From positions 1 through 64,000 of IMG/VR virus record IMGVR_UViG_3300013005_000034: DNA of 64,000 nt; one strand, 5' to 3'. The position numbers and the translations under genes are program-made. Of the stretch, positions 47,039-63,442 are shown in pieces. Position 1 is the stretch's first letter. The number at the start of each line of letters is the position of its first letter. The stretch is from a virus. The notes under the pieces were generated by a model. It saw only the letters and a list, made by a program, of their open reading frames with translations. It had not been told where the DNA came from and did not search any database.

Positions 47039-47051
47039 AACTTATAATTTA

Positions 47052-47468
47052 TTAATAATCTCCTGCAAAAGCACAAGCATCAATGTTATCTGCTATTGTT
47101 GCCCAATTAGTAGAAGTAACTGAAATTTTTTCTCCTGTCTTTAAAATTATTGGTTGGTCGAAAGTGTAAATAGCAGTTGCTCCTAAGTTAGTTGCGGATT
47201 TTAATGTTCCAGCAGGAAATAAAACTTGTCCTATAAGTCGTATTGTTGCTCCTGTTGTTAAGAACATATTTACTCTTGTCGCAGTTGAGGCAGTTGTTGA
47301 AGCACCAGAGTTATTAAACCTGATGCCATCTACTCTTGCGCCATTTGCACCTGCTGTTACTACATCAACAAGTGTTCCTCCTCCGCTATTATCACTATTA
47401 GCGGCTGCTATTCTCGCAGGTGTAAAATTACCTTGAAGGATAAATATGGGTGTGGTGTTTACTGGCAT
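47052..47468 (-). CDS. Small structural-type protein, 138 aa
   Basis: FILQGNFTPARIAAANSDNSG and TRVNMFLTTGATIRLIGQV, YTFDQPIILKTGEKISVTST suggest a compact beta-sandwich like many virion decoration proteins. Sits between fibre genes. No name possible. Confidence 0.65.
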   Translation of the reverse strand: MPVNTTPIFILQGNFTPARIAAANSDNSGGGTLVDVVTAGANGARVDGIRFNNSGASTTASTATRVNMFLTTGATIRLIGQVLFPAGTLKSATNLGATAIYTFDQPIILKTGEKISVTSTNWATIADNIDACAFAGDY

Positions 47469-47471
47469 CGA

Positions 47472-47735
47472 TTAAATTATTTGAGGGGGTTTGTTTTCGT
47501 TTTGATAATCTATTAGTTCTTGTTCGCTAAACTCTTTTACAGTTATAGCAACATTATTGTTCTGCACTATTCTATTTATGTGTATTCCTTGAATACCAAT
47601 AGGAGTTGCAGCTCCTTTAATTTCATAAGAGTAATACACTCCATCATCTCCCATATAGTCGCAAAGATATACAACTTCATCAGGTAATGGAACACTCTCA
47701 ATTATATGCCCATCAGGCGCAGGATATGTCATCAT
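47472..47735 (-). CDS. Hypothetical protein, 87 aa
   Basis: Beta-rich opening (YPAPDGHIIESVPLPDEVVY), then HINRIVQNNNVAITVKEFSE. No family. In the fibre gene block, possibly a chaperone or minor structural protein; context only. Confidence 0.6.
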   Translation of the reverse strand: MMTYPAPDGHIIESVPLPDEVVYLCDYMGDDGVYYSYEIKGAATPIGIQGIHINRIVQNNNVAITVKEFSEQELIDYQNENKPPQII

Positions 47736-47762
47736 TTTTTATGTATTTTTTATTTTTAAAAT

Positions 47763-48266
47763 TCAAATATAATTATAGTAATTGAATAAATTAACAGCAG
47801 GTGGAGCATAATTTTCAAATTTATTATCCACATATTCCTTTACTGCATTTTGTGTAGGATATAGAGTATTACTATTTCCTAAATTAATATCTGTTGATTT
47901 ATTAGCAACATTTTCAGGGGTAAACCCTAAAGCATTTTGTTTTTCATTAAAAGTATTCCAATCAGTTGAAGATAAATAACCATCAGTCGTGTTATTTGAT
48001 TGTGAAATACTAATATCGGGAGTATCACCCCCACTTGAAGATAAAGGTTCAGTTGCAGTAACATCAGTAACAGTTCCGCTTCCTCCTCCACCTCCTAATA
48101 CTAACCAATTTGTGCCATTTGAATAATAATATTCTCCATTCCAATAAACAATTCGCTTGGTATTAGAACTTGCAGGGCTTTGCGTTATATCCAAAGTATC
48201 AGCCTTTAGATTAACCACTTGGTTACTCTGCAAATCTACATTAACAAAAAATTTTCTTTCAGACAT
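47763..48266 (-). CDS. Tail-fibre-like protein, 167 aa
   Basis: N-terminus (RKFFVNVDLQSNQVVNLKA) is related to the start of the 690-residue protein at 48380 (KKFFVDINLQGNALNN). A GTVTDVTATEPLSSSGGDTPDISI linker and LGNSNTLYPTQNAVKEYVDN complete the fibre-like pattern. A promoter -7 TATATTTG (minus strand) is at about 48278-48290. Confidence 0.72.
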   Translation of the reverse strand: MSERKFFVNVDLQSNQVVNLKADTLDITQSPASSNTKRIVYWNGEYYYSNGTNWLVLGGGGGSGTVTDVTATEPLSSSGGDTPDISISQSNNTTDGYLSSTDWNTFNEKQNALGFTPENVANKSTDINLGNSNTLYPTQNAVKEYVDNKFENYAPPAVNLFNYYNYI

Positions 48267-48277
48267 TATTATTTATT

Positions 48278-48290
48278 TAACACAAATATA
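48278..48290 (-). promoter_or_regulatory. Promoter -7 element upstream of the 47763 gene
   Basis: Minus-strand TATATATTTGTG contains TATATTTG. A TTG lies about 22 bases further upstream, near the Bacteroidota spacing. The region up to 48343 is A/T-rich and has no gene. Confidence 0.45.
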
Positions 48291-48343
48291 TAAAAAACGA
48301 AAAAAACTAAATCAATTTAATAATTAAGTTTTTTTTTTAAAAT

Positions 48344-48369
48344 ATCCCCTCTATATTTCAAGAGGGGAT
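48344..48369 (-). terminator. Terminator of the 48380 gene
   Basis: ATCCCCTCT (48344-48352) pairs with AGAGGGGAT (48361-48369) around an 8-base loop. On the minus strand the hairpin follows the stop codon at 48380 and is followed by ATATTTT. A strong stem of 9 bp. Confidence 0.75.
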
Positions 48370-48379
48370 TATTTAATTT

Positions 48380-50452
48380 TTATTTAGAAACACCTACACT
48401 TACAGATGCAGGAGGAGCAATGTTAGATTTTAATATAATTGTATTAACATTATAAAGTTCAACTGCAAATTCTACTAAATTACCTGAAACATAAGCAGAT
48501 ACTTTTGGAGAAGCAGATTCAATGTTATGAGCTACTTGTAAAGAGTAATAACCTTTTACAGCATCATAAGTCCAATCAGTATCAGCAAATGTTCCACTAA
48601 ATACAGCGTTACCTAATTGAGTATCTACATAGTTCTTAGTAGCAGCATCTTGAGCAGATGTTGGTTCAGGTAAGTTGTTAATAGTATTAGTATTTTGGAA
48701 GTCTAAGTTAGAAACAACATTTATAGTATCACTAACGTCTATACTGGAAAGTAAATTTGTATGAACTTCATTTCCTTTTATTTGTTCTGCATTATAAATA
48801 ACATTATTACCCATGTCAATATTACCTGACATAGTACCACCTGCTAAGTCTAATTTAAGAGCAAGACCAGCATCCGCATAATCTTCTGCATTTCCCTGAG
48901 CAAGTGCAGCAGTGTCATCTACATATTTTTTAGGAGTTGCATCAGCTACATTGATAGGAGTAGGTAAATTAGTAATAGCATTACCATTAGCATCTAATGA
49001 ATCTACTAAAGATGCTGATGTTAATCCTACGCTACTAATGTTATTTCCATTAGCATTGATACTATTGTTCAAAGATATATCTTGACCAGCTATACCACTT
49101 AAACTTGCAGCAGCTATATCATTAACATTACTAATATCATAACCTCCCATGTCAATACTACCCGACATAGTACCACCTGCTAAATCTAACTTAGTAGCAG
49201 CTAAACCATCTGTATAAGAATTAGCATTTGATTGTGCAGCATCAGCTTTTGCAGTAGCATCAGCAGAAGCAGTTGCTTCAGCATTTGATTGTGCAGTTGA
49301 AGCAGCAGTATCTACATAAATCTTACTGGCAGCATCATTATCAGCAATTGGGTTTGCTAAATCCGTTACAGAATTACCACCCATCTCAATATTGCCCGAC
49401 ATAGTACCACCTGCTAAATCTAACTTAGTAGCAAGACCAGTGTCAGTGTAACTATTAGCATTTGATTCTGCTGTATTAGCAGCATTTGTAGCAAATGTTT
49501 CAGCATTACTTTGAGCTGTGTTAGCAGCAGTTGTAGCAAAACTTTCAGCATTTGATTGTGCAGCATCAGCTTTTGCAGTAGCATCAGCAGAAGCATTTGC
49601 CTCAGCATTTGATTGTGCAGTTGAAGCAGCATTATCTACATAATCTTTGTTAGCTGCATCACCTCCGTTTACTGGAGCAGGTAAATTAGTAATAGCATTA
49701 CTATTAGCATCTAAAGCATTTGCTAATTTAGCATCATGAATAGGTGAAGCATTAGTATATATATCTCCACCTTCATTTACTGTTAAACCATTAGTATTAA
49801 CACCACCAGCAATAAAAGAATTAACATTACTAATATCATTACCATCCATATCAAGACTGCCACTCATTACTTGACTGCCATTTCTTGATAATTTATCATC
49901 TGTTAAACCACTAATTGAATTATTAATGTCAGCAAGTTGAGAAGAAGCAGCAAAAGTAGCAGGAGTTAATACAACTGCACCACCTTCTGTTCCAGCATCA
50001 ACCTCAGCTTGTGTAGCTAATCTTACAATACCATCTACTGAATCAGTAGCAATAACTACATTACCTTGAATAATTAACCAATCACCAATAGAAGCACCAG
50101 CAGCATCAACTTTAGCAATTAAAGAATCACCAACTTGAACTGATTCTCCTAAGAAAGAACCTGCTGTTTCTACAACCCAAAAGAAACCTTTTAAAGCTGA
50201 ACCATCTGTAATGTCTGGAGTGTTTGTTGACGCATCATAACCTGTTTGTAAAATCAAACCACCTGTTACTGCTGAAATATCAGACAAGTCAGCTACTTGT
50301 TGAACACTTGAACCATTATAGTATTCTAATCTTGTTCCATTGTACTGAAATGAACCACCTTTGGTCATATCAGAGTTCGAACCAATCGTTGCGTTGTTTA
50401 ACGCATTGCCTTGTAGATTAATATCTACAAAAAACTTTTTGTCTACTGCCAT
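48380..50452 (-). CDS. Tail-fibre protein, 690 aa
   Basis: N-terminal virion-binding-like segment (KKFFVDINLQGNALNNATIG), then repeats of LDLAGGTMSGNIDMGGN, NAITNLPTPINVADATPKKY and the heptad AAQSNAEATASADA; the C-terminus has a FSGTFADTDWTYDAV domain. These are typical of long tail fibres built of coiled-coil and beta-helix parts. Repeats are exact enough to allow recombination inside the gene. Followed by a strong terminator. Confidence 0.82.
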   Translation of the reverse strand: MAVDKKFFVDINLQGNALNNATIGSNSDMTKGGSFQYNGTRLEYYNGSSVQQVADLSDISAVTGGLILQTGYDASTNTPDITDGSALKGFFWVVETAGSFLGESVQVGDSLIAKVDAAGASIGDWLIIQGNVVIATDSVDGIVRLATQAEVDAGTEGGAVVLTPATFAASSQLADINNSISGLTDDKLSRNGSQVMSGSLDMDGNDISNVNSFIAGGVNTNGLTVNEGGDIYTNASPIHDAKLANALDANSNAITNLPAPVNGGDAANKDYVDNAASTAQSNAEANASADATAKADAAQSNAESFATTAANTAQSNAETFATNAANTAESNANSYTDTGLATKLDLAGGTMSGNIEMGGNSVTDLANPIADNDAASKIYVDTAASTAQSNAEATASADATAKADAAQSNANSYTDGLAATKLDLAGGTMSGSIDMGGYDISNVNDIAAASLSGIAGQDISLNNSINANGNNISSVGLTSASLVDSLDANGNAITNLPTPINVADATPKKYVDDTAALAQGNAEDYADAGLALKLDLAGGTMSGNIDMGNNVIYNAEQIKGNEVHTNLLSSIDVSDTINVVSNLDFQNTNTINNLPEPTSAQDAATKNYVDTQLGNAVFSGTFADTDWTYDAVKGYYSLQVAHNIESASPKVSAYVSGNLVEFAVELYNVNTIILKSNIAPPASVSVGVSK

Positions 50453-50520
50453 TTTTTTTTGTTTTTTATTTTTTTTATTTATATTCCCTCACCATGAGGA
50501 AAATGTTTTTTTATTTTAAA

Positions 50521-51090
50521 TCAGTTACAATACACATATCCCGTTATTGCTGAATTAAATTCAACTTTAACAGTATTATTATTTAACCAAGTTATATTAC
50601 CAATTATCTCTTGAAAATCATTATCTACAATCTGAACCGCACATCTTTTATCTAAATTATGATTTACCACCCAACTACTTGCATTTGTAATTTGTTGATA
50701 TACAAAATTTTTATCATTTCCTCCACCACCACCTGATGTAGTGTAAGTGAAATTTGCGTTCCACAAGGTATCTGAAATAGGTTTTACAGTAACATTTCCA
50801 TTATTTTGATTTATAACCAAATTAGAAATGTTATTAGAAAAAATTTCACCTGAATTTGTGCTAATAGTTATATTATTAACAGATGCGTTATTTGATATAT
50901 CTGTAACGGTTAAATTGAATATGCTACCGCCTAAATTAAATCCTGACCTCGAATTAAAGTTTATAATATCGCTTATTTTAGGGAGTATTAGATTAATAGC
51001 ACCCGAAGATGTATCACATAATATATTGACATCCGAAACAGATACATTTTGTGTACCTGCGTTTACTATTCGTGAATAAGGAAAAGTCAT
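50521..51090 (-). CDS. Fibre-like or baseplate-type protein, 189 aa
   Basis: Beta-rich: GTQNVSVSDVNILCDTSSGA, INLILPKISDIIN and NNITISTNSGEIFSN. The C-terminal NDKNFVYQQITNASSWVVNH ... FQEIIGNITWLNNNTVKVEF domain resembles C-terminal fibre ends. A TAACTTTG promoter -7 element (minus strand) lies just upstream near 51104-51111. Confidence 0.68.
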   Translation of the reverse strand: MTFPYSRIVNAGTQNVSVSDVNILCDTSSGAINLILPKISDIINFNSRSGFNLGGSIFNLTVTDISNNASVNNITISTNSGEIFSNNISNLVINQNNGNVTVKPISDTLWNANFTYTTSGGGGGNDKNFVYQQITNASSWVVNHNLDKRCAVQIVDNDFQEIIGNITWLNNNTVKVEFNSAITGYVYCN

Positions 51091-51183
51091 TATTCTAAAC
51101 TACTTTCAACAAAGTTAAGATAAAAAAAAATTGATTTTATAACTTTATCCTATACGATAATTTAGTAAATATTGACAACAATA

Positions 51184-51573
51184 CTACTCGAAATTGTAAT
51201 AGTTGAAAAGTGCATCAGAAGTGGAATTTCCTCCACCACCTGCCGTAATACCTCCTTGTAAAGTCCAAGTATCAGCAGCTATTTTTATTAACTCACACAT
51301 AGCGTATTGAGCAATTAAATCTAAAACACCGCCTTGACTATTTATTGTAACTCCAACTCCACCATTTATAGAAGTTTGACCTGCACCTGCTTGGAGAACA
51401 TATACTCTTGTTCCTAATAGAAAATCTACTGTCGCATCATTTGGAATAGTAACCGTATTTGCACTACCTACATTCATTATAATCAAAGTAGAAGTATCAG
51501 TTTTTTGCAAAACATAACTTGCTACTTGATTATTAAGTTTTAAATTCTCGGTTTGTAAAAATTCTAAAGACAT
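51184..51573 (-). CDS. Fibre-associated domain protein, 129 aa
   Basis: Nearly the whole protein matches the N-terminal 115 residues of the protein at 43109: ANTVTIPNDATVDFLLGTR, YVLQAGAGQTSINGG, YAMCELIKIAADTWTLQGG. It ends shortly after with a GGGNSTS linker. It may be a stand-alone form of a module also used in the longer fibre protein. Confidence 0.7.
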   Translation of the reverse strand: MSLEFLQTENLKLNNQVASYVLQKTDTSTLIIMNVGSANTVTIPNDATVDFLLGTRVYVLQAGAGQTSINGGVGVTINSQGGVLDLIAQYAMCELIKIAADTWTLQGGITAGGGGNSTSDALFNYYNFE

Positions 51574-51588
51574 TTTTTATTTTTTAAA

Positions 51589-54021
51589 TTACCAAGCGAC
51601 TTCTTCAAAATAAACACTTGCTACAATTCTAAAAGTTGAGCCATTTGCTGTTGTTGGAGCAACCATTGTTAATTGTAAATCATTACTTCCACCAACTGCG
51701 TAAGTTAAATCAGATGTACTCATAGTTGCATCTGATTGATTTGCAACTCTTGTTTGTACGCCACTTATACTTGAAGTTCCACCAACACGTTTAAAGAAAA
51801 ATGTATCAGTTGCATATTTAACATCTCCAACAATAACTGTACCTGTACCAACTGATGTTGCAACCATAACCCACTTAACCATTACGTTCCAAGCTCTATT
51901 ATTTCCGTTTGGTAAAATTGTTTGAGAAGTACCATCAAGATATAATATAGATGTTCCTGCTGAATTTAATGTAGCTAATTTTCTTGCAATAACTTTTGAA
52001 GATTGAGCATCACCAACAGATGCGAAAAATCCACTTGAATAAGCGTTTTGAGAATATAAATAAGAGTAACCACCGTAGCCACCACTAATTGTAGAATAAG
52101 TACACGAAGCTGTGTTTAGATAACCACCACCTATTGTAGAAGTACAACCCGATGAATTATTGCAATAACCTCCACTTATTGTTGAATAATTGCCTGATGC
52201 TGTATTAAAATATCCAGCTCCAATGAATGAACCAATACCCGATGCGTTATTATTATATCCACCGCTTATAGTCGAATACTGTTGTGTTGTCAAATTTTGA
52301 AATCCACCTCCAATAGTTGAATATTTACCTGCATTACAAATTGTTGGTGCTACTGAAAAACAATTATTTGTGCTATCCCAAGTACCTCCTGTCGTATTAT
52401 TTCCAACGCCACCTGATACTGTTGCTCCTACGGAATAACATCCACTTGTTGAATTACAAATATTATTACATTGACCACCTCCAACAAAAGAATAGAAACC
52501 TTGTACTAAATTCGCATAACCTCCACTAATTGTTGAAATAATCCCTGATGCTGTATTACAAATACCACCCGATATAGTGCTTATCTCACCCGAAGCCACG
52601 TTATTTGCTCCGCCACCTATTGTACCGCAAGAGCAACTCGCTGTATTTCCATTACCACCCGATATTGTCGTGTTTGCTGCCGATGCTATATTACCTTCAC
52701 CGCCACCTATAACACTTGCAATTCCTGAAACTGTATTGCCATAACCACCACTAATAGTCGAACGATAAATAGTAACCGAATTAGCTGAACCTCCACCTAT
52801 CGTTGATGTATAACAAGAAATTATATTGTTATAACCACCCGAAATTGTAGAAAATGCTGCTATATTTGATACGCCACCATCTACACAATTTGCATAACCA
52901 CCCGATATTGTATTAGATGATGTACTACATTGAATAAGGTTTTTATATCCCCCCGAAACTGTATTGTTCCCTACAATATATGTTTTTCCACCAGTATAAG
53001 GAGTTGAATTAGTACATATACAATTTTGATAACCACCGCCTATAACATTAGGTAAACAAGCAACTATTTCACAATATGGAGTTGCTGCACATATTTTATT
53101 TTGAAAACCACCAAAAATTGAAGAGTATTTATAATCTATAAGATTTGAATCCCCTCCTCCTATTGAAGAATATAAACCCGATGCAGTATTTTGACGACCT
53201 CCGTTAATTGTTGAGTAATTTGCTGACGCTGAATTATTACGACCACCTGCAATGTTTGAATAATTACCCGATGAAGTATTTGCGAATCCACCTGCAACTG
53301 TTGAAAAACAAGCACTTGAAATATTCCCACTTCCACCACCTATGGTAGCATAATTAGCGGATGAAGTATTACAATATCCACCACTTATGGTAGTGTAATT
53401 ACAACTTGAATTATTATTTCGACCACCACTTATTGAAGAATATACACCCGATGCTGTATTCCCACATCCTCCACCTATTGTAGCATAGTTTTGATTTGAA
53501 GTATTATTAGCTCCTCCCCCTACATTAGCAAATAAACTTGATGCTGTGTTAAAACAGCCACCACTAATTGTAGTATAAGGTTTAGTTGCTGAATTAGAAT
53601 AACCTCCACTAACGATTGTATAATCACAACTTGATATATTGTTATATCCGCCACTAATAGTTGAGTAAACACCTGATGCAGTATTTCCACGACCTCCGCC
53701 AATGGTTGATAGATTACATGATGCTATATTATTATATCCTCCACTAACTGTTGTATAATCACAAGATGCAGTGTTACCTCTACCGCCACTTACAGTTGAG
53801 GAATAGTTTGATGATGTATTCTGATACCCTCCTCCAACGCTTGAATAATTACCCGATGCAGTATTATTAACTCCTAAAGCTGTTGAATAAATTCCCGAAG
53901 AACTATTACTATTCCCACAACGATATGAACTACCTGAACCTGCTCCAAGCAAAATAACAGCATTTCCACCGCCACCGCCTCCACCCGAAGTTCCTGTCCA
54001 TCCAAAATTTGAAATTTCCAT
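51589..54021 (-). CDS. Repeat adhesin of YadA-head-like type, 810 aa
   Basis: About forty repeats of roughly 15-17 residues with the theme NTASGNYSTISGGYN, where position changes are mostly among A, S, C, Y, T and G. This matches a trimeric-autotransporter head or beta-roll. The N-terminus is GWTGTSGGGGGGGN and the last 140 residues (VGDAQSSKVIARKLATLNSA ... QLTMVAPTTANGSTFRIV) form a distinct C-terminal domain. Predicted fibre or cell-binding protein of the virion. DNA repeats are imperfect. Confidence 0.78.
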   Translation of the reverse strand: MEISNFGWTGTSGGGGGGGNAVILLGAGSGSSYRCGNSNSSSGIYSTALGVNNTASGNYSSVGGGYQNTSSNYSSTVSGGRGNTASCDYTTVSGGYNNIASCNLSTIGGGRGNTASGVYSTISGGYNNISSCDYTIVSGGYSNSATKPYTTISGGCFNTASSLFANVGGGANNTSNQNYATIGGGCGNTASGVYSSISGGRNNNSSCNYTTISGGYCNTSSANYATIGGGSGNISSACFSTVAGGFANTSSGNYSNIAGGRNNSASANYSTINGGRQNTASGLYSSIGGGDSNLIDYKYSSIFGGFQNKICAATPYCEIVACLPNVIGGGYQNCICTNSTPYTGGKTYIVGNNTVSGGYKNLIQCSTSSNTISGGYANCVDGGVSNIAAFSTISGGYNNIISCYTSTIGGGSANSVTIYRSTISGGYGNTVSGIASVIGGGEGNIASAANTTISGGNGNTASCSCGTIGGGANNVASGEISTISGGICNTASGIISTISGGYANLVQGFYSFVGGGQCNNICNSTSGCYSVGATVSGGVGNNTTGGTWDSTNNCFSVAPTICNAGKYSTIGGGFQNLTTQQYSTISGGYNNNASGIGSFIGAGYFNTASGNYSTISGGYCNNSSGCTSTIGGGYLNTASCTYSTISGGYGGYSYLYSQNAYSSGFFASVGDAQSSKVIARKLATLNSAGTSILYLDGTSQTILPNGNNRAWNVMVKWVMVATSVGTGTVIVGDVKYATDTFFFKRVGGTSSISGVQTRVANQSDATMSTSDLTYAVGGSNDLQLTMVAPTTANGSTFRIVASVYFEEVAW

Positions 54022-54040: not shown

Positions 54041-54313
54041 TTAACGAGCAATTATTTCAATAGTTCCGCCAGTCGCATCAATTATAAATTCACTAATGTA
54101 TTTAGATTGTTCTGAACTTACTGTTACAGGCTCACCAACTACAAGTGGAATTGGAGCTGAACTTATAGCGCCTAAAGGCTTTGTTCCTGAATATGTACCT
54201 GCACCTGCTGTTAATTTTAAAGCAACTGCTGTAATACCAAATTCTTCATTTATAGTTAAAGTACCTGCTGATAAAACGTAGGTAAATATTGGTTGTTTCT
54301 TATCAAAACTCAT
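54041..54313 (-). CDS. Small virion-type protein, 90 aa
   Basis: FTYVLSAGTLTINEEFGITA, VALKLTAGAGTYSGT and PLVVGEPVTVSSE give a beta-sandwich-like protein of the size of head-decoration or fibre-cap proteins. Sits next to the repeat adhesin gene. No clear family. Confidence 0.65.
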   Translation of the reverse strand: MSFDKKQPIFTYVLSAGTLTINEEFGITAVALKLTAGAGTYSGTKPLGAISSAPIPLVVGEPVTVSSEQSKYISEFIIDATGGTIEIIAR

Positions 54314-54339: not shown

Positions 54340-54702
54340 TTAAATATAGTCATCTAAATTTAATGGCTTTACTGGGTTTGTTTCTTTAAATAAATAAAGT
54401 AACGGTTCACAATCATCAGTTTTTGTGTAAATTCTTACATTTACTAAAGGTTCAGGTATTGAATTTTTTTTGGAAATAGTATCAATAATTGTATTTAACT
54501 TATTTCCTACCATAAAAGCAACTATTGAATTTAAGTTCAATGCTGTTGCGATGTTGGTTTGCTCTAAAATTTCCGAATTTTTCATAATCTCGTATTTAAG
54601 ATTATCATTTGGTTTAGAAATTTTAATTCTCAATTCCTTCTCGCTGATTTTGTGTTTGCTACTCAATGAACGAATTGCGTTTTTTAGTGTTTCCTTAATC
54701 AT
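54340..54702 (-). CDS. Hypothetical protein, 120 aa
   Basis: Lys/Ile/Ser-rich, partly helical (KETLKNAIRSLSSKHKISE; ATALNLNSIVAFMVGNKLN). No signal peptide or motif. In the virion gene block. Function unknown. Confidence 0.6.
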   Translation of the reverse strand: MIKETLKNAIRSLSSKHKISEKELRIKISKPNDNLKYEIMKNSEILEQTNIATALNLNSIVAFMVGNKLNTIIDTISKKNSIPEPLVNVRIYTKTDDCEPLLYLFKETNPVKPLNLDDYI

Positions 54703-54773: not shown

Positions 54774-55298
54774 TTAATCACATTTTTTAGCGTTTGGATT
54801 AGGTGTTAATAATTCTTGCAATGTAACATCTTCCTCAAAAGGTATTTCTTTTAATGAAATTCCTCCTGTTTTTGCTGAAAAATATCCTTTTGTTGTTATT
54901 ACAAGTTTTTCTTTGTCATAAATTATTGGTGCTATATTGGTTAAACCTGCTCTTAATAAATCTTTTGGATTAAACTCAAAGTCAAGTTTAATTGTAGTAG
55001 ACGATTTGCTATAAAGCGTTTGTTTTTCTATCTTTTTAATCTTAGTTATAAATAATTTATTTACATAAATATTAAAATTTAGATTTGAGATTTCTATTGT
55101 TAAATCACTTTCATTTACAATTTTAAAAAACAAAGTAATTTTTACGTTATCTAATCCTAATGTATGAATGATACCACCCGAAATAGTATAACAAGCATCT
55201 TTTAATAAGTTGAATTGATTTTTAAAGTATGCAATTAAACTAATTAAAGCTAAAGATATACCCCCTATTATTAATCCGTTTCTTAATCCTTTATTCAT
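54774..55298 (-). CDS. Membrane-anchored LEA14-like protein, 174 aa
   Basis: N-terminal span GLIIGGISLALISLIAYF (about 8-25), then an immunoglobulin-like beta domain: KITLFFKIVNESDLTIEISN, LNFNIYVNKLFITKIKK, SSTTIKLDFEFNPKDLL, TKGYFSAKTGGISLKE. This is the LEA_2/WHy-type fold that occurs in stress proteins and in some phage and lipoprotein contexts. Anchored to a membrane with the domain outside. Role unknown. Confidence 0.7.
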   Translation of the reverse strand: MNKGLRNGLIIGGISLALISLIAYFKNQFNLLKDACYTISGGIIHTLGLDNVKITLFFKIVNESDLTIEISNLNFNIYVNKLFITKIKKIEKQTLYSKSSTTIKLDFEFNPKDLLRAGLTNIAPIIYDKEKLVITTKGYFSAKTGGISLKEIPFEEDVTLQELLTPNPNAKKCD

Positions 55299-55336
55299 TT
55301 TTTAATTTTTTATCGAATGTTGCAAATATCGTGATT

Positions 55337-56884
55337 TTACATATCATTTTTAATCTGATAAAAGAAATCTTTTACCGAAACTTTTGATAATGGCACTAAA
55401 TTATCAAATTTATTTCCATTAATCGGCTTAACTTTATTTCTAAATAAATCAAAATTATCAGTTTTTGTTAAAAGTTTTGATTTTTCAAGCTGTTGCTGAA
55501 CTAAAATCAACTTAACTGACGATTGACCCTGAATAGTAAAGTTTGAAAGAGAAGTATTTGCATCTAAAGTAAAACCCCTATTACCAAAATCAATTTTTGA
55601 TACTGATGCTTGGAACTGATTAACATTCAAAGACAAAGCAGGGAATTTAGGATAGTAAAAAGCCTTACCATTTGCATCTTTTGTTGTTGCGTATATTACC
55701 TGATTTATGTTAGCAATGTTATTTGAATATAACATAAATTGCTTAACATTAACAGGGTTGTATAGTAAATCTCTTACAAAGTCGTTATAATTAAAGCTAC
55801 CACCTATGTATGTTGTTGTGGTTACAGCAGGGGAAACAAATCCCGATGTATTATTTGAGTTATTAGCAGTATATAAAGTGTTGCTTAAATTGTTATACGC
55901 AGAAGCTATTGGGCTACCTGCCATACTTATAGTTGATGCTACTGAATTAGTTATTGCATTTATTTCAACAATCGTATTTGAAAAAAAACAAGCAACATAT
56001 ATTATATTTAATTGAGAATTGTATGACAAATCAAAAGGGGAAGCACCAATAGGTATTGTAGCTATTACTGTATTAGTGTTACAATCTATAACTGAAATAT
56101 CATTACTGCCATTATTGCTTACATACATACAGTTATTAAATGGGCAATATTGAATATATATAGGTGAAGCACCAACGGGTATTGGTAAACCAACAACCGT
56201 ATTACTAAAACAATCTATTACATAAACGCCATTCGTTAATGTATCAGGGATATACATAGCGTTATTTGTAGTGTTATATTCTATTCTCAATGAACTTGTA
56301 GCTAATGGTATTGTAGATATAATTGTATTTGTATTACAATCTAAAATACCAATAACACTTGATATAAGTTGAGATACTACATAAATAGTATTATTTGTAG
56401 TGTTTAAAGCTAAACCATTTGTTCCAAAAAAAGGCAATAAAATTGTGGTAATGTCTAAATTAGTTGCGCAATCAACAACTCTAATTTGATTATTATTAAG
56501 ATATATATAAATAGTATTGTTAATACTATTATATAATACTTCTTGAGGTATTCCTATTGTTGCGGTAGAAGTAAATATTACTGAATTTGTATTACAATCT
56601 ATTACGTTAAAATCATTAGAACTTTGATTTATAACATACATAGTATTGTTCGTGGTATTGTAGGCTATATCTAATGGATTAGTTCCAACAGTAATAGGAG
56701 TTCCAACAACACTCGGAGGTAAAGTTGGTGCAGGTACGGTTTGAACATTTGTCAAAGTTGTTGTATTAAATAAATCATAACTTACAGGCAAACCAGTAGC
56801 ATTAACTAAATCAAATTCAGTCAAATAATACTGATTTTGATTTATGCCATACTTTTCTCCCTCTGTTTTATTAATTATACTCAT
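55337..56884 (-). CDS. YVTN-type beta-propeller protein, 515 aa
   Basis: Residues 60-330 hold about six repeats of the YVTN motif (IAYNTTNNTMYVINQSSNDF, VIDCNTNTVIATIPIGASP, YNSQLNIIYVACFFSNT), which form a beta-propeller as in surface and fibre proteins. An N-terminal domain (TEGEKYGINQNQYYLTEFDL) precedes and a C-terminal FNYNDFVRDLLYNPVNVKQF domain follows. A propeller of this type is rare in virion gene blocks; may bind host glycans or surface proteins. Confidence 0.78.
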   Translation of the reverse strand: MSIINKTEGEKYGINQNQYYLTEFDLVNATGLPVSYDLFNTTTLTNVQTVPAPTLPPSVVGTPITVGTNPLDIAYNTTNNTMYVINQSSNDFNVIDCNTNSVIFTSTATIGIPQEVLYNSINNTIYIYLNNNQIRVVDCATNLDITTILLPFFGTNGLALNTTNNTIYVVSQLISSVIGILDCNTNTIISTIPLATSSLRIEYNTTNNAMYIPDTLTNGVYVIDCFSNTVVGLPIPVGASPIYIQYCPFNNCMYVSNNGSNDISVIDCNTNTVIATIPIGASPFDLSYNSQLNIIYVACFFSNTIVEINAITNSVASTISMAGSPIASAYNNLSNTLYTANNSNNTSGFVSPAVTTTTYIGGSFNYNDFVRDLLYNPVNVKQFMLYSNNIANINQVIYATTKDANGKAFYYPKFPALSLNVNQFQASVSKIDFGNRGFTLDANTSLSNFTIQGQSSVKLILVQQQLEKSKLLTKTDNFDLFRNKVKPINGNKFDNLVPLSKVSVKDFFYQIKNDM

Positions 56885-57270
56885 TCGTATATTTTTGAAA
56901 TTATTTCAAGAAATTTTTTGTTTTCTTCTTCCGTTCTATTTATTAGTGTCTTATAAATTATATCGTAAAAACTTTTAACATCTTCAAATTTCATTTTCTC
57001 GATGGTTTCTTTTTTATCAACTAATTTACTTAAATCATAACCAAACTGAATAGGTTGTTCGAGATATTTAATCCCCTCAAAGAACTCATCAAGGTTATTT
57101 ATGTTTTTGTACCTCTCTCTTAATTCATTTAACTTTTGTTCGTCTTTACTTTTATTTCTTTTATCAATAAAGTATTTTACAGCAAAATATCCTCCGACTA
57201 AAATTGTTGGAAGAACAACCCATGCTGTTACTTTTGTTGCCTTACTATTTAAAATATTTTTAAAGTTCAT
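56881..57270 (-). CDS. Single-span membrane protein, 129 aa
   Basis: N-terminal span (VTAWVVLPTILVGGYFAVKYF, about 13-33), followed by a charged helical region (KDEQKLNELRERYKNINNL). Overlaps the neighbours by 4 bases on one side and 1 on the other, so it is part of an operon of membrane-anchored proteins. Confidence 0.65.
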   Translation of the reverse strand: MNFKNILNSKATKVTAWVVLPTILVGGYFAVKYFIDKRNKSKDEQKLNELRERYKNINNLDEFFEGIKYLEQPIQFGYDLSKLVDKKETIEKMKFEDVKSFYDIIYKTLINRTEEENKKFLEIISKIYE

Positions 57271-57926
57271 TAAATTAAAATATCTAATAATCCGTTTGTA
57301 CCTACTAATTTTGTTATATAAGCAGATGGCTCTTTAGGTAAAATTGAAACCAAATCCTCTACACTACCTTTATGATTAATAGTTTTTTTAGCTATTTTAC
57401 CATAACGACCTGCATTATAAATTACTGCAACTTTATCTAAACGAGGAACTCCGTTTTCAGTAAACTCATCGGCTAATTGCTTAATTATTATACTACCTAT
57501 CAGAATGTTTAATTCAGGATTAAATAATTCTTTTTTACCAATCCACGTTTTACCTGTACTTTTTTGATTCTTTTTTAGTTTTTCAAGATTTTTCATCTTG
57601 CTACCTAAATGCTTTTTCAATATTTCTTCTTCATCGTTGCTTAATCTACCACTTGATTTTTCGTAAACTAAGGCATCTGATGCTGTCGCCAAACCAACCT
57701 GCATAATCCCGATGGCATAAACAGTTTCAGCAGTTTCCTTTCCACCTGATTCAATGAAAATGAAACTTTTTATTATTTCATCATTCAATCCAGTAATTTT
57801 AGAAATATTATTAATTATTTTACCATACTTAGTTACTATGACATCTTCAATTTTATCCTTAATCAAAGGAATTTGTTTAGCTTCATAGAATTTTAAAGTT
57901 GTTGCAGGTATTTTTAATTTTGCCAT
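57270..57926 (-). CDS. Transglycosylase-like protein, 218 aa
   Basis: Second SLT-like protein: IIKSFIFIESGGKETAET, with candidate catalytic Glu59, then AIGIMQVGLATASDAL, PELNILIGSIIIKQLADEF and VAVIYNAGRYG, the usual spacing of the SLT motifs. No membrane span is seen. It lies in the virion region, so it may be the enzyme that opens peptidoglycan during DNA entry, as virion lysozymes do. Confidence 0.82.
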   Translation of the reverse strand: MAKLKIPATTLKFYEAKQIPLIKDKIEDVIVTKYGKIINNISKITGLNDEIIKSFIFIESGGKETAETVYAIGIMQVGLATASDALVYEKSSGRLSNDEEEILKKHLGSKMKNLEKLKKNQKSTGKTWIGKKELFNPELNILIGSIIIKQLADEFTENGVPRLDKVAVIYNAGRYGKIAKKTINHKGSVEDLVSILPKEPSAYITKLVGTNGLLDILI

Positions 57927-57930
57927 GATT

Positions 57931-58095
57931 TTATTCTCTTACAAATTGTATTTTACTTTGTTTTGATTCTGCTGTTACTTTATTTTCATCTATGTTAGGT
58001 TCATTTTTTGAAAATTTCTTATAAAGAAAATATCCTCCTACCGCAAGTGCTAAACCACCCACAACATATAAAATAGTTTTTGTTGTATTGTTCAT
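57931..58095 (-). CDS. Small single-span membrane protein, 54 aa
   Basis: ATG at 58095, stop at 57931-57933. One span at residues 7-24 (ILYVVGGLALAVGGYF), then KKFSKNEPNIDENK. Same anchor style as its neighbours. Four bases from the transglycosylase gene. Confidence 0.62.
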   Translation of the reverse strand: MNNTTKTILYVVGGLALAVGGYFLYKKFSKNEPNIDENKVTAESKQSKIQFVRE

Positions 58096-58098
58096 AAT

Positions 58099-58623
58099 TT
58101 AAACTAATTGATTACTTAATGTGTTTTTTATTGGATTCGCTAAAGGACTTTTTGTCAAATCTACAACTTCTTTTATAACTTTAAACTCTACTCTCCTATT
58201 TTTTTCTCTACCTTCTTCGGTTGAATTATCTGCAATAGGTTTTGTACTACCAAATCCATCTGCTTCAATTCTTGTAGGTTTTATACCTTTATCTTCTAAA
58301 TATTTCTTAACAGAGTTTGCTCTTGCTTTAGATAGCTTTAAATTATAATCAGCCGAACCTTTATTATCAGTATGACCTTCTAATTTTAAATTCCACTCTT
58401 TTTCTCTTAAAACATTTACTATTTCATCTAAAAAAGGAAATGAACTCGGTTTGATAACATCTTTGTTAAATTCAAACTGCAAATTATCATAAGCATCTTT
58501 GAAAACTTTTTCAGGACTTAAATTAGGTTTTGGTTTTGGCTTTCTTCTAAATGCTAAATACAACCCAAACGCTAAAGCAACTACTACTGCTCCCCCAATA
58601 ATTAATTTATTCTTATTATTCAT
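58099..58623 (-). CDS. OmpA-family peptidoglycan-binding membrane protein
   Basis: N-terminal span (LIIGGAVVVALAFGLYLAF, 7-25), a Lys/Pro linker, then an OmpA C-terminal domain: NLQFEFNKDVIKPSSFPFLD, LKLEGHTDNKGS and YNLKLSKARANSVKKYLED, RIEADGFGSTKPIADN, GREKNRRVEF. The Asp/Arg peptidoglycan-binding residues are present. Such a membrane-to-wall link suggests a virion or envelope machine that crosses peptidoglycan, rather than a normal tail protein. Confidence 0.85.
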   Translation of the reverse strand: MNNKNKLIIGGAVVVALAFGLYLAFRRKPKPKPNLSPEKVFKDAYDNLQFEFNKDVIKPSSFPFLDEIVNVLREKEWNLKLEGHTDNKGSADYNLKLSKARANSVKKYLEDKGIKPTRIEADGFGSTKPIADNSTEEGREKNRRVEFKVIKEVVDLTKSPLANPIKNTLSNQLV

Positions 58624-59066
58624 TTTTTACTTTTTAATATAAACAATCCTACCGTTACACCTAATAATAATCCACCTAAACTATACATTATTTTATTCTT
58701 TCCAAATCTTTCAGCAACAAAATAAGCTAATATTCCACCGCCTAAACCTGTAATACTTGGTATTGTGTAATTATTTTTTTTATCTCCCTCAATACTTGAA
58801 GTTTTTTCAAAATATTGTTTAAAGTTTTCTTTTGCTCCCGAATAAATTTTTTGCTCTTTATTTGTGTTTGCAAATTTAATTACACGAAAACGATATATTA
58901 TTTGATTTCCCTTTTTAACTTTCTGAATAACATAAATAGCATCTCCCTCATTGAGAACGCCATCAGTATTCCCATTAGGGAGTAAAAGTTCAAGTTTTTT
59001 TACAACTTCATAAACTTTTTTCCTCCCTTTACGAATTACTTCATTATCGGAAAAGTTAGAATACAT
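58620..59066 (-). CDS. Membrane protein with C-terminal spans, 148 aa
   Basis: Soluble N-terminal part (beta-rich EGDAIYVIQKVKKGNQIIYR), then two hydrophobic segments at the C-terminus (IPSITGLGGGILAYFVAERF; IMYSLGGLLLGVTVGLFIL). Overlaps the OmpA gene by four bases. Confidence 0.65.
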   Translation of the reverse strand: MYSNFSDNEVIRKGRKKVYEVVKKLELLLPNGNTDGVLNEGDAIYVIQKVKKGNQIIYRFRVIKFANTNKEQKIYSGAKENFKQYFEKTSSIEGDKKNNYTIPSITGLGGGILAYFVAERFGKNKIMYSLGGLLLGVTVGLFILKSKK

Positions 59067-59067
59067 T

Positions 59068-59718
59068 TTATATTGCAGTTATTACATCAGCCCAATTAAC
59101 CCAAAATTCAAACATAGCCTTATCGTTTATATCTTTAGGATAAGAAGATATGTTTTTAAATTTTGCTACAATTTTATTTTTTAATGGGTCTTTCTTTAAA
59201 TCAATTAAAACGCCAACATATTGACCTTGTTCAAAATTGCCTCTACCATCTCCGCCACCTTTAATATAAGGCTTTGTAGTGTATTCTGATGTAAAAGAAT
59301 TTATTAATTTTTTAGCAATAAATCTTTTATCTTTGTATTTTGATAATTCATTTGGCAAATTAATCTGTTCTGCTAATTTTTTAACATCATCTTTATAAGC
59401 AGAGCCAAATTCTTTATAAGCTGCTCTAATTGTTGAGTTATCAGGTTTACCTATTGGGTCTAATTTATCTCCATTAAAACGCCAGTCAGGATAATTTTTA
59501 TTCATCCATACACGAAAAGCATCTCCTTGTTCTTGGTTAAATCCTGTTGAATCATAAGAAGTTGTTGAAGTTGTTGTAGTTGTTTCATTTGTGCCTTTTC
59601 CTTCTTCTTCTTTTTTTGGCTCATTAGTAAGTTTATTTTTATTTCTCATCCACCAAAATACACCACCGCCTATTAATAATGCCGATGCAATTCCAATCCA
59701 AATTACTTTTTTGTTCAT
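59068..59718 (-). CDS. Membrane-anchored protein with peptidoglycan-binding-like domain, 216 aa
   Basis: The ATG at 59718 is preferred to 59784, because the upstream gene ends at 59738. Span at about 5-22 (VIWIGIASALLIGGGVFWW), a Lys/Glu and Thr linker, then a domain with QGDAFRVWMNKNYPDWRFNG, FGSAYKDDVKKLAEQIN and FKNISSYPKDINDKAMFEFW. The first part looks like a phage cell-wall-binding unit I have seen in Bacteroidota phages. Confidence 0.68.
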   Translation of the reverse strand: MNKKVIWIGIASALLIGGGVFWWMRNKNKLTNEPKKEEEGKGTNETTTTTSTTSYDSTGFNQEQGDAFRVWMNKNYPDWRFNGDKLDPIGKPDNSTIRAAYKEFGSAYKDDVKKLAEQINLPNELSKYKDKRFIAKKLINSFTSEYTTKPYIKGGGDGRGNFEQGQYVGVLIDLKKDPLKNKIVAKFKNISSYPKDINDKAMFEFWVNWADVITAI

Positions 59719-59737
59719 TTTGCTATATTTTAATAAA

Positions 59738-59926
59738 TTATTCTTGAATTTTTTGCATAGCTTCCTTAAAAGCATAAATCGCAATTAGAGTTGTTAATGC
59801 ACCAACTGCAATTACACCTGCGCTTTTGCCTTTAACTCCATTGATTAAAGCATTAATTCCACCATAACCAACTACTAAACTTCCTACGATTACAGTTGCA
59901 TCTGTTACTTTTCCTAAAGTTCTCAT
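59738..59926 (-). CDS. Small membrane protein, 62 aa
   Basis: Two hydrophobic segments (VIVGSLVVGYGGINALI; GVIAVGALTTLIAIYAF) with Gly-rich helices, like a minor membrane component or holin-like protein. Within the membrane-protein series. Confidence 0.62.
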   Translation of the reverse strand: MRTLGKVTDATVIVGSLVVGYGGINALINGVKGKSAGVIAVGALTTLIAIYAFKEAMQKIQE

Positions 59927-59956
59927 TTTGTTTTTATTTTATTTGTTTTTTATTTA

Positions 59957-60460
59957 TTAAAGCGTTATTCCAATTTTCTTCAAATGCTCTCTTAAAACTT
60001 TACCAGTAGTTAAATAATCTGTTTGTTCTTTTAACAATTCAGGTAGAGGATATTTTTCACTAATTTGCCCAAAAGAACCACAATAACTAATATCTCTAAC
60101 ATCAAATTCTTTAACTAAATAATACCAATCAATAGGAGCTTTTACTAATTTGATTATTGAACTTACAACCATTGCTTCGGTAGTTATTGCCTCACATCCA
60201 TCAAATTGTTTTTGTATGTAATTTGCTAATGAACTATATGCTGAAATATTGCTATCACTAAGTTTTTTACCTTCTTTTTTCAATTTTTCATACATAGATT
60301 TAGCATCTTTAACGGTAGCTTTTACCTCTTGCGTTTCTTCAATGTCTTTTATTTTTCTATAAATTTTATAACCAATAAAACCTATACCACCTACAATTAC
60401 TACTGCTATTGTACCTTTTGCCCATTGAGGCAATTGAGTGAAATATTCTCCTGTTTTCAT
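59957..60460 (-). CDS. Single-span membrane protein, 167 aa
   Basis: N-terminal span (KGTIAVVIVGGIGFIGYKI, about 15-33), then helical (TVKDAKSMYEKLKKEGKKLS; FDGCEAITTEAMVVSSIIKL). No family. Directly after the 60462 gene. Confidence 0.64.
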   Translation of the reverse strand: MKTGEYFTQLPQWAKGTIAVVIVGGIGFIGYKIYRKIKDIEETQEVKATVKDAKSMYEKLKKEGKKLSDSNISAYSSLANYIQKQFDGCEAITTEAMVVSSIIKLVKAPIDWYYLVKEFDVRDISYCGSFGQISEKYPLPELLKEQTDYLTTGKVLREHLKKIGITL

Positions 60461-60461
60461 A

Positions 60462-60821
60462 TTAAATTATTGCCTTGTTTAAATTTTCCCAAATAGAATT
60501 ACCCTCAATAGTATTTCCTTCGTCAATAATTAGTTTCTTTCCACCATCAAGATAAGTTCCTTTTTTTAAATATCCAGTTATTCCTTTTGTAGTAATAGAA
60601 AATCTATTATTATTGAAAAAAGCAGCTTGATTTTTACCGTTATTAAAATCAACCATAACTGTATCTTTAGCTGAATTAATCAGTTTTGCTCCCCCTAAAT
60701 TATCTGCAACATCATCAAAGTTTTTCTTATCAGAATTTCTATATATTAAAAAATAATAAACTGCACCTATTAATCCTAATGTCGCTGCAACTGCGATTAT
60801 CCCTTTTGTATTTTTATTCAT
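60462..60821 (-). CDS. Single-span membrane protein, 119 aa
   Basis: Span at 7-25 (GIIAVAATLGLIGAVYYFL), followed by a small soluble domain (FDDVADNLGGAKLINSAKDT). Same arrangement as the neighbours. Overlaps the 60814 gene by eight bases. Confidence 0.64.
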   Translation of the reverse strand: MNKNTKGIIAVAATLGLIGAVYYFLIYRNSDKKNFDDVADNLGGAKLINSAKDTVMVDFNNGKNQAAFFNNNRFSITTKGITGYLKKGTYLDGGKKLIIDEGNTIEGNSIWENLNKAII

Positions 60822-61248
60822 GACCTTTTTGTTCTAATTTATAATAAGGCTTCAAAAAGCATTTAACATATTTTTTTCCACTTATGAAGTCATAAGGATA
60901 TTTAGGCTCACGACCTAAAGCTATTCTCATATCTTCCATGCTCATTTCAACTACCGTTTCGCCTCCATGCTCAAATTTCTTTTTTAAATTATCGTCAGAA
61001 TGTTTTTTATCATCTCTTGATTCGTGATAAATTTGTTTTACATCATCAGGATAATTCCCATCACTATCTTTTTTAAATTTTTCAATTTCAGATTTCAATG
61101 GTCTTTTAAATCTTAATTTTTTACCTTTTTTGTTTAAAGTTCCATCTTTTTTAGTAAGAGCATCAATTCCATCTGTTTTGAAACGATAACCAGTTGGTTT
61201 TGCTTTTACTGCCTTATCTTTAGCACTTGCTTTTTTCTTCTTTGCCAT
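60814..61248 (-). CDS. Basic protein with GG-linker and RadC-protein tail homology, 144 aa
   Basis: Very basic N-terminal half (KKKKASAKDKAVKAKPTGYR), then NLKKKFEHGGETVVEMSM and a C-terminal segment MRIALGREPKYPYDFISGKK, which resembles the tail of the RadC protein at 61271 (KLTKILGHEPNYPKQVIG). The GG element matches the linkers of that protein. Possibly a DNA-binding or packaged companion. Confidence 0.65.
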   Translation of the reverse strand: MAKKKKASAKDKAVKAKPTGYRFKTDGIDALTKKDGTLNKKGKKLRFKRPLKSEIEKFKKDSDGNYPDDVKQIYHESRDDKKHSDDNLKKKFEHGGETVVEMSMEDMRIALGREPKYPYDFISGKKYVKCFLKPYYKLEQKGHE

Positions 61249-61270: not shown

Positions 61271-63442
61271 TTAAATTTTATAAAAATTTCTTAAATATGC
61301 TTTTTCTAAAACTAAACTACCTATAACTTGTTTTGGATAGTTTGGTTCATGTCCTAATATTTTTGTTAATTTACATATACAGATTTCGCCATTCTGTAAA
61401 TTTTCACGAACTAACATTTCAGCAGATTTAGAAAATTCTTTTGATGCTGATTTTAAATCATCTTGGTATTCGATTCCACCGCCTGTTTCTTTGTAGTATT
61501 CTTTAGGTTTAACTTCATAGTGTAATTTTAAATTTGGTTTATTTAATTTTACAGACAATATTTCCCTTTCTTTAATAGCTTCATAAGGTGTATTATGTAT
61601 TGAAATAATTTTATTTGTTTTATTATCTATAACGTATGATATTGATGGCTTATATAACTGCCAACTTTCATCGTACTTTGCGTTGGGATTTCCAATAAAC
61701 GTATCGCCTACTTTATAATTCCCAACCCCACCGCCATTGGCGTATCTTTTAGGAATTGTATCAAAATAATCTTGCATATAAGTTGCCATTCCATCTATGT
61801 AATATTCAAAACTATTATATCCATTTTTTTCTAATTTTGATATTTTAGAATAACCTCTTTTTATGCTTTTTGCAAATTCTTCTGCTTCTTTTAAATTATC
61901 TGTCCAAAAAGATTTTGATTTAGGGTTGTTTTCTAATTCATTTACATAACCTACCTGATATTTACTTATACCATGACCAACCCCACCGCCATTGGCGTAT
62001 TCCATAACTTCTGGAAATAAATCTAATCCTTTTTTTGTAAATTTCCATTTTGAAGTGTCAATATCTTCAATAGTATTCGCTTTTATTGTATTCCATCTAT
62101 TCCCTAATACATCAACAATATTAATGTAAAATTTTCCCGTTTTTGGTTCAAAGTAGTAACTATTATCTTTATATTCAGCTATTAAAATTTTACTTTCAAC
62201 CCCACCGCCATTTTTAAATCTCTTTAATTTCCAATTATAAAATTCATCTAATATGTATTTTTCAGCATTTTCCCAATCTTCGGGTACATTTTGTCCCCAT
62301 TCAATTTCGTCATTCATCCTACTTGATGATGGTGCTTCAATAATATAACCATCATAATCAAGAATTGATGCGCCTTCGCTATCTTCTGTTTCAAAAGAGA
62401 AATCATAACGACCAAGCCTTCTATCCGTATTGTCAGAAAAATCAATATTTTTAATTATTTCCTTGTTTGACAAAACCATTCCTCCCATTTCATATCCATT
62501 ATCGGCAAGGCTATAATAATTATCTGAATTTGGAACTATTATCATGCTATCTAAAACGGTTACATTAAACATTTTTAATGCAGTTTTAACTTGTTGATAT
62601 AATTTAATATCTGCTTCGCTCGGTCTATTATTTCCGCTTGGATGATTGTGTGCTAAAATTACACCTTTAGATAATGTTTTTAAAGCTAAAGCACCAATCA
62701 TTTCAACATCAACTAAAGTAGAATTAATTGCGCCTTTTGTATGTTCATAATATCCTATTGGCTCATTTGCATTGTTTAAAAACAATACGTTCAATTCTTC
62801 ACGAACATTTATGCTTTCTTTATTCCAAAGTTGTTTAAAAATTTCGTAAGCATCTCTTGAACTACCAATTTTTGTTTTTTCAATGCCAAAATCTTGACGA
62901 ACAAGTGTAATATCAATAAGTGCAATATCAATTTCGCTAATCTTTTGATTATTAGGCTCATTTATAACAATAGGAGTTTCTGAACTTAAATCAGGATATT
63001 TCATTATTCCGCCAGTAGCAAATTTTTTTTGACTTGCTCTATTGCCAATTTTATAATCTAAATGATGATATAAGTTATCAATATCATTAGCTGATATAGC
63101 TAATTTATTCTCTTGCCATGACATTAACTTAGAACCGCCTTTAATCATTTCAATTAACTTGTTAGCGTATTTTGAAATTGATAAAAGTTGTTTTTTAAAT
63201 ATCATTCCTCCCTCATCAAATTTTTCCCAGCCCTCTAATGAGTGTGCAACATCGGAAACATTTTGTTCAATACGAGTAAGTTTCATCTTTACCCATTCTT
63301 CTAAATTACTTTCTTCGGTTACGATAATATCTAATTTAACAGCATACTCATAAATCATATCAAGATTTATTAATGCCATTTTTTTATCAAAATCAAATAC
63401 ATCAAAAACTCCACCTAAATCGTATTTATCCCAATGTTTCAT
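61271..63442 (-). CDS. Multidomain (polyvalent-type) protein with RadC/JAB domain, 723 aa
   Basis: Residues about 195-315 form a RadC-type JAB domain: ELNVLFLNNANEPIGYYEH with the conserved Glu, VILAHNHPSG (H265, H267), PSEADIK (D278) and YYSLADNG. The metal ligands are all present, so it may be an active JAB metallo-enzyme. Other small domains are joined by Gly-Gly linkers: FDEGGMI, FATGGIM, YEMGGMV, FKNGGGVE, YANGGGVGHG, YANGGGVGNY, KETGGGIE. This resembles the polyvalent proteins of phages and conjugative elements, which enter the cell with the DNA. The role of the GG sites is open. Confidence 0.78.
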   Translation of the reverse strand: MKHWDKYDLGGVFDVFDFDKKMALINLDMIYEYAVKLDIIVTEESNLEEWVKMKLTRIEQNVSDVAHSLEGWEKFDEGGMIFKKQLLSISKYANKLIEMIKGGSKLMSWQENKLAISANDIDNLYHHLDYKIGNRASQKKFATGGIMKYPDLSSETPIVINEPNNQKISEIDIALIDITLVRQDFGIEKTKIGSSRDAYEIFKQLWNKESINVREELNVLFLNNANEPIGYYEHTKGAINSTLVDVEMIGALALKTLSKGVILAHNHPSGNNRPSEADIKLYQQVKTALKMFNVTVLDSMIIVPNSDNYYSLADNGYEMGGMVLSNKEIIKNIDFSDNTDRRLGRYDFSFETEDSEGASILDYDGYIIEAPSSSRMNDEIEWGQNVPEDWENAEKYILDEFYNWKLKRFKNGGGVESKILIAEYKDNSYYFEPKTGKFYINIVDVLGNRWNTIKANTIEDIDTSKWKFTKKGLDLFPEVMEYANGGGVGHGISKYQVGYVNELENNPKSKSFWTDNLKEAEEFAKSIKRGYSKISKLEKNGYNSFEYYIDGMATYMQDYFDTIPKRYANGGGVGNYKVGDTFIGNPNAKYDESWQLYKPSISYVIDNKTNKIISIHNTPYEAIKEREILSVKLNKPNLKLHYEVKPKEYYKETGGGIEYQDDLKSASKEFSKSAEMLVRENLQNGEICICKLTKILGHEPNYPKQVIGSLVLEKAYLRNFYKI

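Follow-up and report, generated by a model that had tools for sequence, protein, structure and literature searches.

We analyzed a 64,000-nucleotide stretch of viral DNA (the window), which corresponds to positions 1–64,000 of the linear, 73,651-bp IMG/VR record IMGVR_UViG_3300013005_000034 (labeled G73); the final 9.7 kb of the record beyond the window were also read and their genes listed. According to the gene listing, early genes are located on the plus strand up to 33.8 kb and late genes on the minus strand up to the end of the record. Within the late region, positions 54,774–60,821 hold a series of mostly membrane-anchored proteins, for which a first-pass annotation had proposed either an internal-membrane virion or a phage-made device spanning the envelope. 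All open reading frames (ORFs) that it named were found, each of them on the minus strand. At the upstream end 60462–60821 (119 aa, N-terminal anchor) belongs to no family, 59957–60460 (167 aa, N-terminal anchor) fits the family model of cluster C37 with E 4e-73, 59738–59926 (62 aa) has two hydrophobic spans, and 59068–59718 encodes an N-anchored protein of ~216 aa, whose listed ORF opens at TTG 59784, the true start probably being the ATG at 59,718. These are followed by 58620–59066 (148 aa, C-terminal anchor), 58099–58623 (N-anchored, peptidoglycan-binding OmpA family, Pfam E 1.3e-25), 57931–58095 (54 aa, anchored by a span like that of the tail-anchored family members 72352 and 69604), 57270–57926 (SLT lytic transglycosylase without membrane span, Pfam E 5.8e-8), 56881–57270 (129 aa, N-terminal span), 55337–56884 (a jelly roll with a YncE/lactonase-like beta-propeller in a loop, a putative vertex spike) and 54774–55298 (N-anchored, LEA_2-like, Pfam E 2.9e-7). 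The OmpA-like domain announced for the block was thus recovered in 58099; for the supposed cell-wall-binding-like domain, 59068 gave no Pfam match.

The following parameters were used to call membrane spans: Kyte-Doolittle hydropathy, a window of 19 residues and a threshold of ≥1.6. Eight of the eleven genes in the block carry a span (54774, 57931, 58099, 58620, 59068, 59738 with two, 59957 and 60462), none is seen in the SLT gene (57270) or in the propeller gene (55337), and 56881 is borderline with a score of 1.59 and an evident N-terminal span. The earlier count of nine span genes out of ten beside the propeller gene is fair, because 56881 lies only marginally below the threshold. Residue shuffling within each protein (500 trials) gave 2.7 span genes on average and never more than 6, compared with the 8 observed. 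All six genes of the lysis region (37,953–40,763) also carry a span, as had been claimed. In G73 as a whole, spans are present in 25 of 54 proteins on the late minus strand versus 10 of 76 on the early plus strand (Fisher p = 4e-5). The series extends beyond the window with seven C-terminally anchored proteins (record 66,247–73,537), five of which end in the near-identical tail FLGMPKAxGITVAxVGGLALxVGGIFLVKKxRK, while most share an N-terminal NANGLDESxSN-like motif. The enrichment resembles that of PRD1, PM2 and P23-77 and is unlike that of the tailed Tenacibaculum phage Gundel_1: the same method yields 11/22 for the PRD1 late genes, 5/12 for PM2, 15/26 for P23-77 and 6/16 for FLiP, but only 15/120 proteins for Gundel_1.

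The jelly-roll domain of 55337–56884 is shared with a second gene beyond the window (record 64,628–65,410), and a metalloprotease with an HExxH motif (record 65,412–66,242) adjoins the block. Tblastn searches against 50,697 phage records gave no match for any tested protein of the jelly-roll, tail-anchored, metalloprotease or membrane kind, and a single weak propeller match for the propeller protein. Exact peptide patterns of single proteins did not match in viral contigs either, these patterns probably being too strict. Apparent relatives were discarded where a scan for the NANGLDE motif had hit one contig by chance (L002, no genes in common), where Gundel_1 had only RadC in common, and where another named phage shared only an early protein. 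A degenerate DNA pattern covering the stretch after the metalloprotease HExxH motif (HEFSHKY...ADINALNIYLSLGYP) led to two viral contigs and two genome contigs, all of them true relatives: the IMG/VR contigs IMGVR_UViG_3300042465_007707 (V64, 64 kb) and IMGVR_UViG_3300034357_000647 (V54), the genome contig PFNQ01000011.1 (W12) and JAQVVM010000005.1 (B109), a 109,203-bp contig of a Bacteroidales metagenome-assembled genome (MAG). The ends of B109 are identical over 127 bp, with the protease gene split across them, and we therefore regard it as a circular genome. A profile search of 395 Bacteroidia genomes contributed P127, P88, P170, P38 and P8, giving nine relatives by motif and profile together, or ten elements including G73. 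With the jelly-roll profile one additional genome was obtained (4/46 in one order), and in 395 genomes of the phylum only the known one; overall, copies are present in 6 of the 395 sampled Bacteroidia genomes and in 4 of 46 in one order. W12 comes from a MAG labeled Woesearchaeota, although several of its proteins match the Bacteroidales copy at 50–77%, which points to misbinning or to a free virus contig. No description of this virus group was found in the literature searched, which did not span all journals; apparently, these viruses and proviruses of Bacteroidota, which are large at about 109 kb, have not been described as a group before.

The metalloprotease and the jelly-roll family are present in all ten elements; eight also encode an FtsK/HerA-type ATPase together with the membrane protein NPE, and the two exceptions, G73 and P8, are truncated. 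The conserved order is jelly roll, NPE, tail-anchored run, metalloprotease, second jelly roll, more anchored proteins, LEA, f33, f32, fibers and amidase. The f33 (54340–54702, 120 aa) and f32 (54041–54313, 90 aa) genes of G73, both on the minus strand, keep their place between LEA and the fibers, f32 being kept in V64 and V54. Orthologues were found for 59957–60460 (V64 21958–22473, V54 10382–10888), the SLT gene (V64 2692–3348) and the LEA_2-like gene (B109 13559, V64 17569, V54 13010), and at positions comparable to 58099 both B109 and P88 encode N-anchored proteins with weak PG_binding_1 matches (E 0.004 and 0.002). Span enrichment recurs in the relatives, with 28/47 genes in the B109 block versus 12/133 elsewhere and 30/51 versus 3/40 in V64; each genome has over 20 anchored genes, with jelly-roll genes lying in between. 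The first-pass annotation had advised looking for the capsid type in the rest of the genome; in the remaining 9.7 kb of G73 neither capsid nor ATPase was found, and the record stops right where the relatives put the putative capsid gene. As G73 is collinear with them from the tail-anchored run onward, its capsid-like jelly roll and NPE should lie just past base 73,651, and the genome presumably has its ATPase past the contig end as well.

Regarding the ATPase, a nine-sequence profile aligned with the packaging ATPases of P23-77, IN93 and SH1 (probability 85, E 6.5e-6) and with PM2 P9 (probability 87, E 4e-6; all pairwise E values). Controls (terminases, AAA, ClpX and reversed sequences) scored far lower, the best ClpX reaching E 1.4e-3, and known relatives behave alike, since P23-77 and IN93 score PRD1 P9 and SH1 at a similar level. 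The motifs are a Walker A GxxGVGK, a Walker B LLVLED and a stretch TxRHxxxDIxxxxQS, and weak Pfam HerA matches agree with the assignment. Judged by these alignments, the ATPase of the relatives is of the FtsK/HerA, DNA-packaging type and not a terminase.

The jelly-roll family comprises two to three paralogues per element, built on a single core of ~160 residues with no insert, a small domain or a beta-propeller. The propeller interrupts the jelly roll in 55337 and in the same way in its orthologues in the proviruses P127 (90445–92358), P88 (45786–47699), P8 (735–2675) and P170 (fragment, 24252–25823), while V64 and V54 have a paralogue carrying another insert. In the proviruses the plain form has an acidic N-terminus and an arginine-rich C-terminus. 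An AlphaFold2 model of the core from 17 aligned cores reached a predicted local distance difference test score of 72.7 and a predicted template modeling score of 0.68. Its closest structural neighbors are mostly nucleoplasmin-type and viral capsid jelly rolls, namely an FKBP43 domain (Z 6.8, 2.8 Å, 88 residues), BMV (Z 6.7, 5.7 Å, 110 residues), CCMV (Z 6.2, 4.0 Å, 110 residues), PRD1 P3 (Z 6.1, 4.0 Å, 113 residues) and the Faustovirus major capsid protein (MCP; Z 5.4, 3.6 Å, 102 residues); the best Foldseek E was 2e-3. The predicted fold is that of a capsid-type jelly roll, where Z values under 8 indicate a common arrangement in the model, not homology. Hhalign comparisons with PRD1 P3, PM2 P2 and the FLiP MCP were negative and no double-jelly-roll MCP was recognized. 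VP16 and VP17 of P23-77 showed no sequence link and are not among the listed structural neighbors, although the proteins may still be kin. Neither the jelly roll nor the ATPase had a meaningful match in PDB profile searches, and a first, weaker jelly-roll model found no clear match among predicted viral structures. B109 61529–62341, which adjoins the ATPase and was first taken as the capsid protein, is not kept in other elements, and the conserved jelly roll is therefore the preferred candidate.

Searches with PF04466 and phrog_2 found no terminase in circular B109, in V64 or in the G73 fragment, with V54 positive as a control. In G73 Pfam and PHROGs recognized fibers and lysis enzymes, and no terminase, portal, major capsid protein or packaging ATPase among the matches listed; the long proteins of B109 and V64 included no terminase, portal or HK97 capsid among their best 25 families, and tail-gene-like matches in all three elements were of the fiber type only among the matches listed. 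Could G73 still be a tailed phage whose accessory block, unusually rich in membrane proteins, serves lysis, superinfection exclusion or envelope remodeling, with its capsid and tail genes in the missing part? The record is a linear fragment, its fiber genes are like tail fibers, and in V54 the block occurs together with a module of terminase, protease and portal-like genes. We nevertheless consider this explanation rather unlikely, given the lack of a terminase in the complete B109 and the 64-kb V64, the presence of a P9/A32-type ATPase and the jelly-roll family alongside the block in eight elements, and the small number of spans in Gundel_1.

Integrated copies have host genes on their flanks and giant helicase-methylases inside; integration of P127 at its tRNA-Arg received no support from a repeat search. 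In P88 and P38 the membrane and ATPase blocks are separated by restriction, AbiE-like and other defense-type genes. Plasmid-like upkeep and defense cargo are indicated by domains in the long B109 and V64 proteins, among which there are a Rep3-type initiator, a ParB-like protein, an integrase, a zeta toxin and a CAP12-TIR Pycsar effector domain. The initiator, ParB and integrase, the flanked copies with their helicase-methylases and the OmpA and peptidoglycan-binding domains would all suit an envelope-spanning device or surface organelle of a plasmid-like or integrative element, in which jelly rolls and propellers serve as adhesins and the ATPase in DNA transfer. Endolysins, SLT, holin-like genes and fibers are virus-like, however, the ATPase aligns to viral packaging ATPases, the metalloprotease has no match in a plasmid collection, and the Pfam and PHROG lists showed no sign of a relaxase or of type IV secretion genes (no dedicated search was made), so that we hold a device of this kind to be unlikely.

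The late region continues on the minus strand with a block of repeat-rich receptor-binding fiber and adhesin proteins (43109–54021), in which 48380–50452 has relatives in P127, P8 and P88. The lysis region comprises two small anchored proteins of 57 and 121 aa (40222–40763), an SLT-like protein with a C-terminal membrane anchor (39464–40213; Pfam E 2.8e-4, just short of the cut-off), an N-anchored protein of 201 aa (38862–39467), an anchored protein of 79 aa (38626–38865; orthologue B109 16092–16319, 53%), an N-anchored DUF2272/amidase (37953–38645; orthologues B109 9333–9980, 50%, and V64 6601–7272), and beside it lies a GH19 endolysin (37315–37956; Pfam E 8e-8), all on the minus strand. Next to it, 36037–37212 is a TnpB-like insertion sequence gene with 90% identity to B109 102451–103638; the remainder of both genomes is far more diverged, and by this comparison the gene appears to be a recent shared insertion element. 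The 109-aa product of 33841–34170 contains four cysteines and weakly matches HiPIP (Pfam E 1.5e-4), which is unusual for the late region of a virus. Two GIY-YIG/NUMOD-type homing endonuclease-like genes, one early (21135–21986) and one late (63473–64438), are 37% identical to each other. A GxxPxYPYQxxGxxKLEKxxLRPYYK-like C-terminal domain is common to 60814–61248, 61271–63442 (which additionally has a RadC/JAB domain) and record 67412–69547, with a similar domain in B109 43165–43740.

Taken together, the block probably represents the late, particle-building region of a large, tailless, internal-membrane double-stranded DNA virus of Bacteroidota with a single-jelly-roll capsid, which also occurs as proviruses. 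A particle with an inner membrane is the most likely outcome because jelly-roll capsid-like proteins and a packaging-type ATPase replace the tailed-phage genes. Between the two readings offered by the first-pass annotation, the internal-membrane virion is hence favored by the synteny with the jelly-roll family and ATPase and by the absence of a terminase from circular B109, the envelope device less so. The small N- and C-anchored proteins would enter the host membrane and then be wrapped into the particle under a jelly-roll shell, the FtsK/HerA-type ATPase seen in the relatives would package the DNA, the propeller-bearing paralogue (55337–56884) and the fibers would form receptor-binding vertex spikes, and the OmpA, SLT and amidase membrane proteins would open peptidoglycan at entry and exit. 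By analogy with PRD1, part of the anchored set may act as an entry or lysis device, because peptidoglycan-active and envelope-binding domains are present. A jelly-roll virus without a membrane, whose anchored proteins act in the host cell only (at assembly sites, in lysis or exclusion), is very improbable: anchors by themselves do not show incorporation and lysis enzymes are among the anchored proteins, but in the relatives the anchored genes are interleaved with jelly-roll genes as in PRD1, PM2 and P23-77.

Several observations weigh against the internal-membrane virus. V54 joins the jelly-roll, ATPase and membrane block (0–18 kb) to a tailed-phage module with terminase, protease and portal-like genes (34–52 kb), so that either the contig is a chimera or such genes can occur together with a tailed phage in a real hybrid, its composition being compatible with both. 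G73 itself lacks the ATPase and an MCP-like jelly roll, owing to the contig end; every structure match stays below Z 8, and no known jelly-roll capsid protein was found to resemble the putative capsid protein in sequence. The jelly roll as capsid, lipid inside the particle, the propeller as vertex spike and the role of each small protein are inferences from the genes. In addition, the repeat search at the P127 tRNA-Arg found no att site for the integrated copies, and these carry helicase-methylase giants and defense genes typical of other mobile elements.

Whether the group forms a new high-rank lineage seems to us evenly balanced: it would consist of tailless membrane viruses of Bacteroidota of about 109 kb, with single-jelly-roll capsids, vertex spikes that carry propellers and anchored proteins by the dozen, and would exceed every prokaryotic jelly-roll membrane virus mentioned here several times in size. 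If true, the same virion plan would accommodate a genome of the size found in big tailed phages and would extend to proviruses in Bacteroidota, which would bear on the origin of jelly-roll capsids and packaging ATPases. A jelly-roll family with differing inserts makes the evolution of capsid and spike proteins testable, and current annotation seems to miss the lineage.

Among known architectures, the internal-membrane, jelly-roll plan fits, in which jelly-roll capsid proteins and an FtsK/HerA ATPase go together with many single-span proteins, vertex spikes and peptidoglycan enzymes linked to the membrane (PMC8812541; PMC8328091). The helvetiaviruses, with two single-jelly-roll capsid proteins, are nearest in kind. 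Their trait of an FtsK/HerA packaging ATPase was found in the relatives, truncated G73 being without the gene, and as in the Thermus phages P23-77 and IN93 and the halovirus SH1 this ATPase aligns, there are two or more jelly-roll paralogues (one plain, one enlarged), many late genes with spans (15 of 26 in P23-77), virion transglycosylase and lysozyme genes and, in the Thermus phages, circular genomes. Helvetiavirus genomes, however, measure 17–31 kb versus about 109 kb here, the hosts here are Bacteroidota, and no counterparts are annotated there for the metalloprotease, propeller spike, fiber block and large early region. We do not claim membership in Helvetiavirae, because the capsid role is putative and lacks a sequence link to VP16/VP17. 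Corticovirus PM2 and tectivirus PRD1 (Bamfordvirae) share the internal-membrane virion plan with many single-span proteins, an SLT enzyme in the membrane, spike and penton genes and, in PM2, an alignable P9 ATPase; their capsid is of the double-jelly-roll type, in contrast to the single ~160-residue core found here, and such known double-jelly-roll membrane phages have 10–15 kb genomes (PMC5894146). Flavobacterium phage FLiP (Finnlakeviridae) has a Bacteroidota host, an internal membrane and a virion lytic enzyme, but is a single-stranded DNA phage of 9.2 kb with a double-jelly-roll MCP and no packaging ATPase (PMC8812541), and gave no sequence match. Gundel_1 (Pachyviridae), a tailed flavobacterial phage, is similar in size and host phylum and shares a RadC-like domain, whereas it has a terminase and portal, no match to the late block and few span proteins (15/120). 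What sets the group apart from the known plan is its size (about 109 kb versus 9–31 kb), the propeller-bearing jelly roll, the conserved metalloprotease, the fiber block and the large tail-anchored family.

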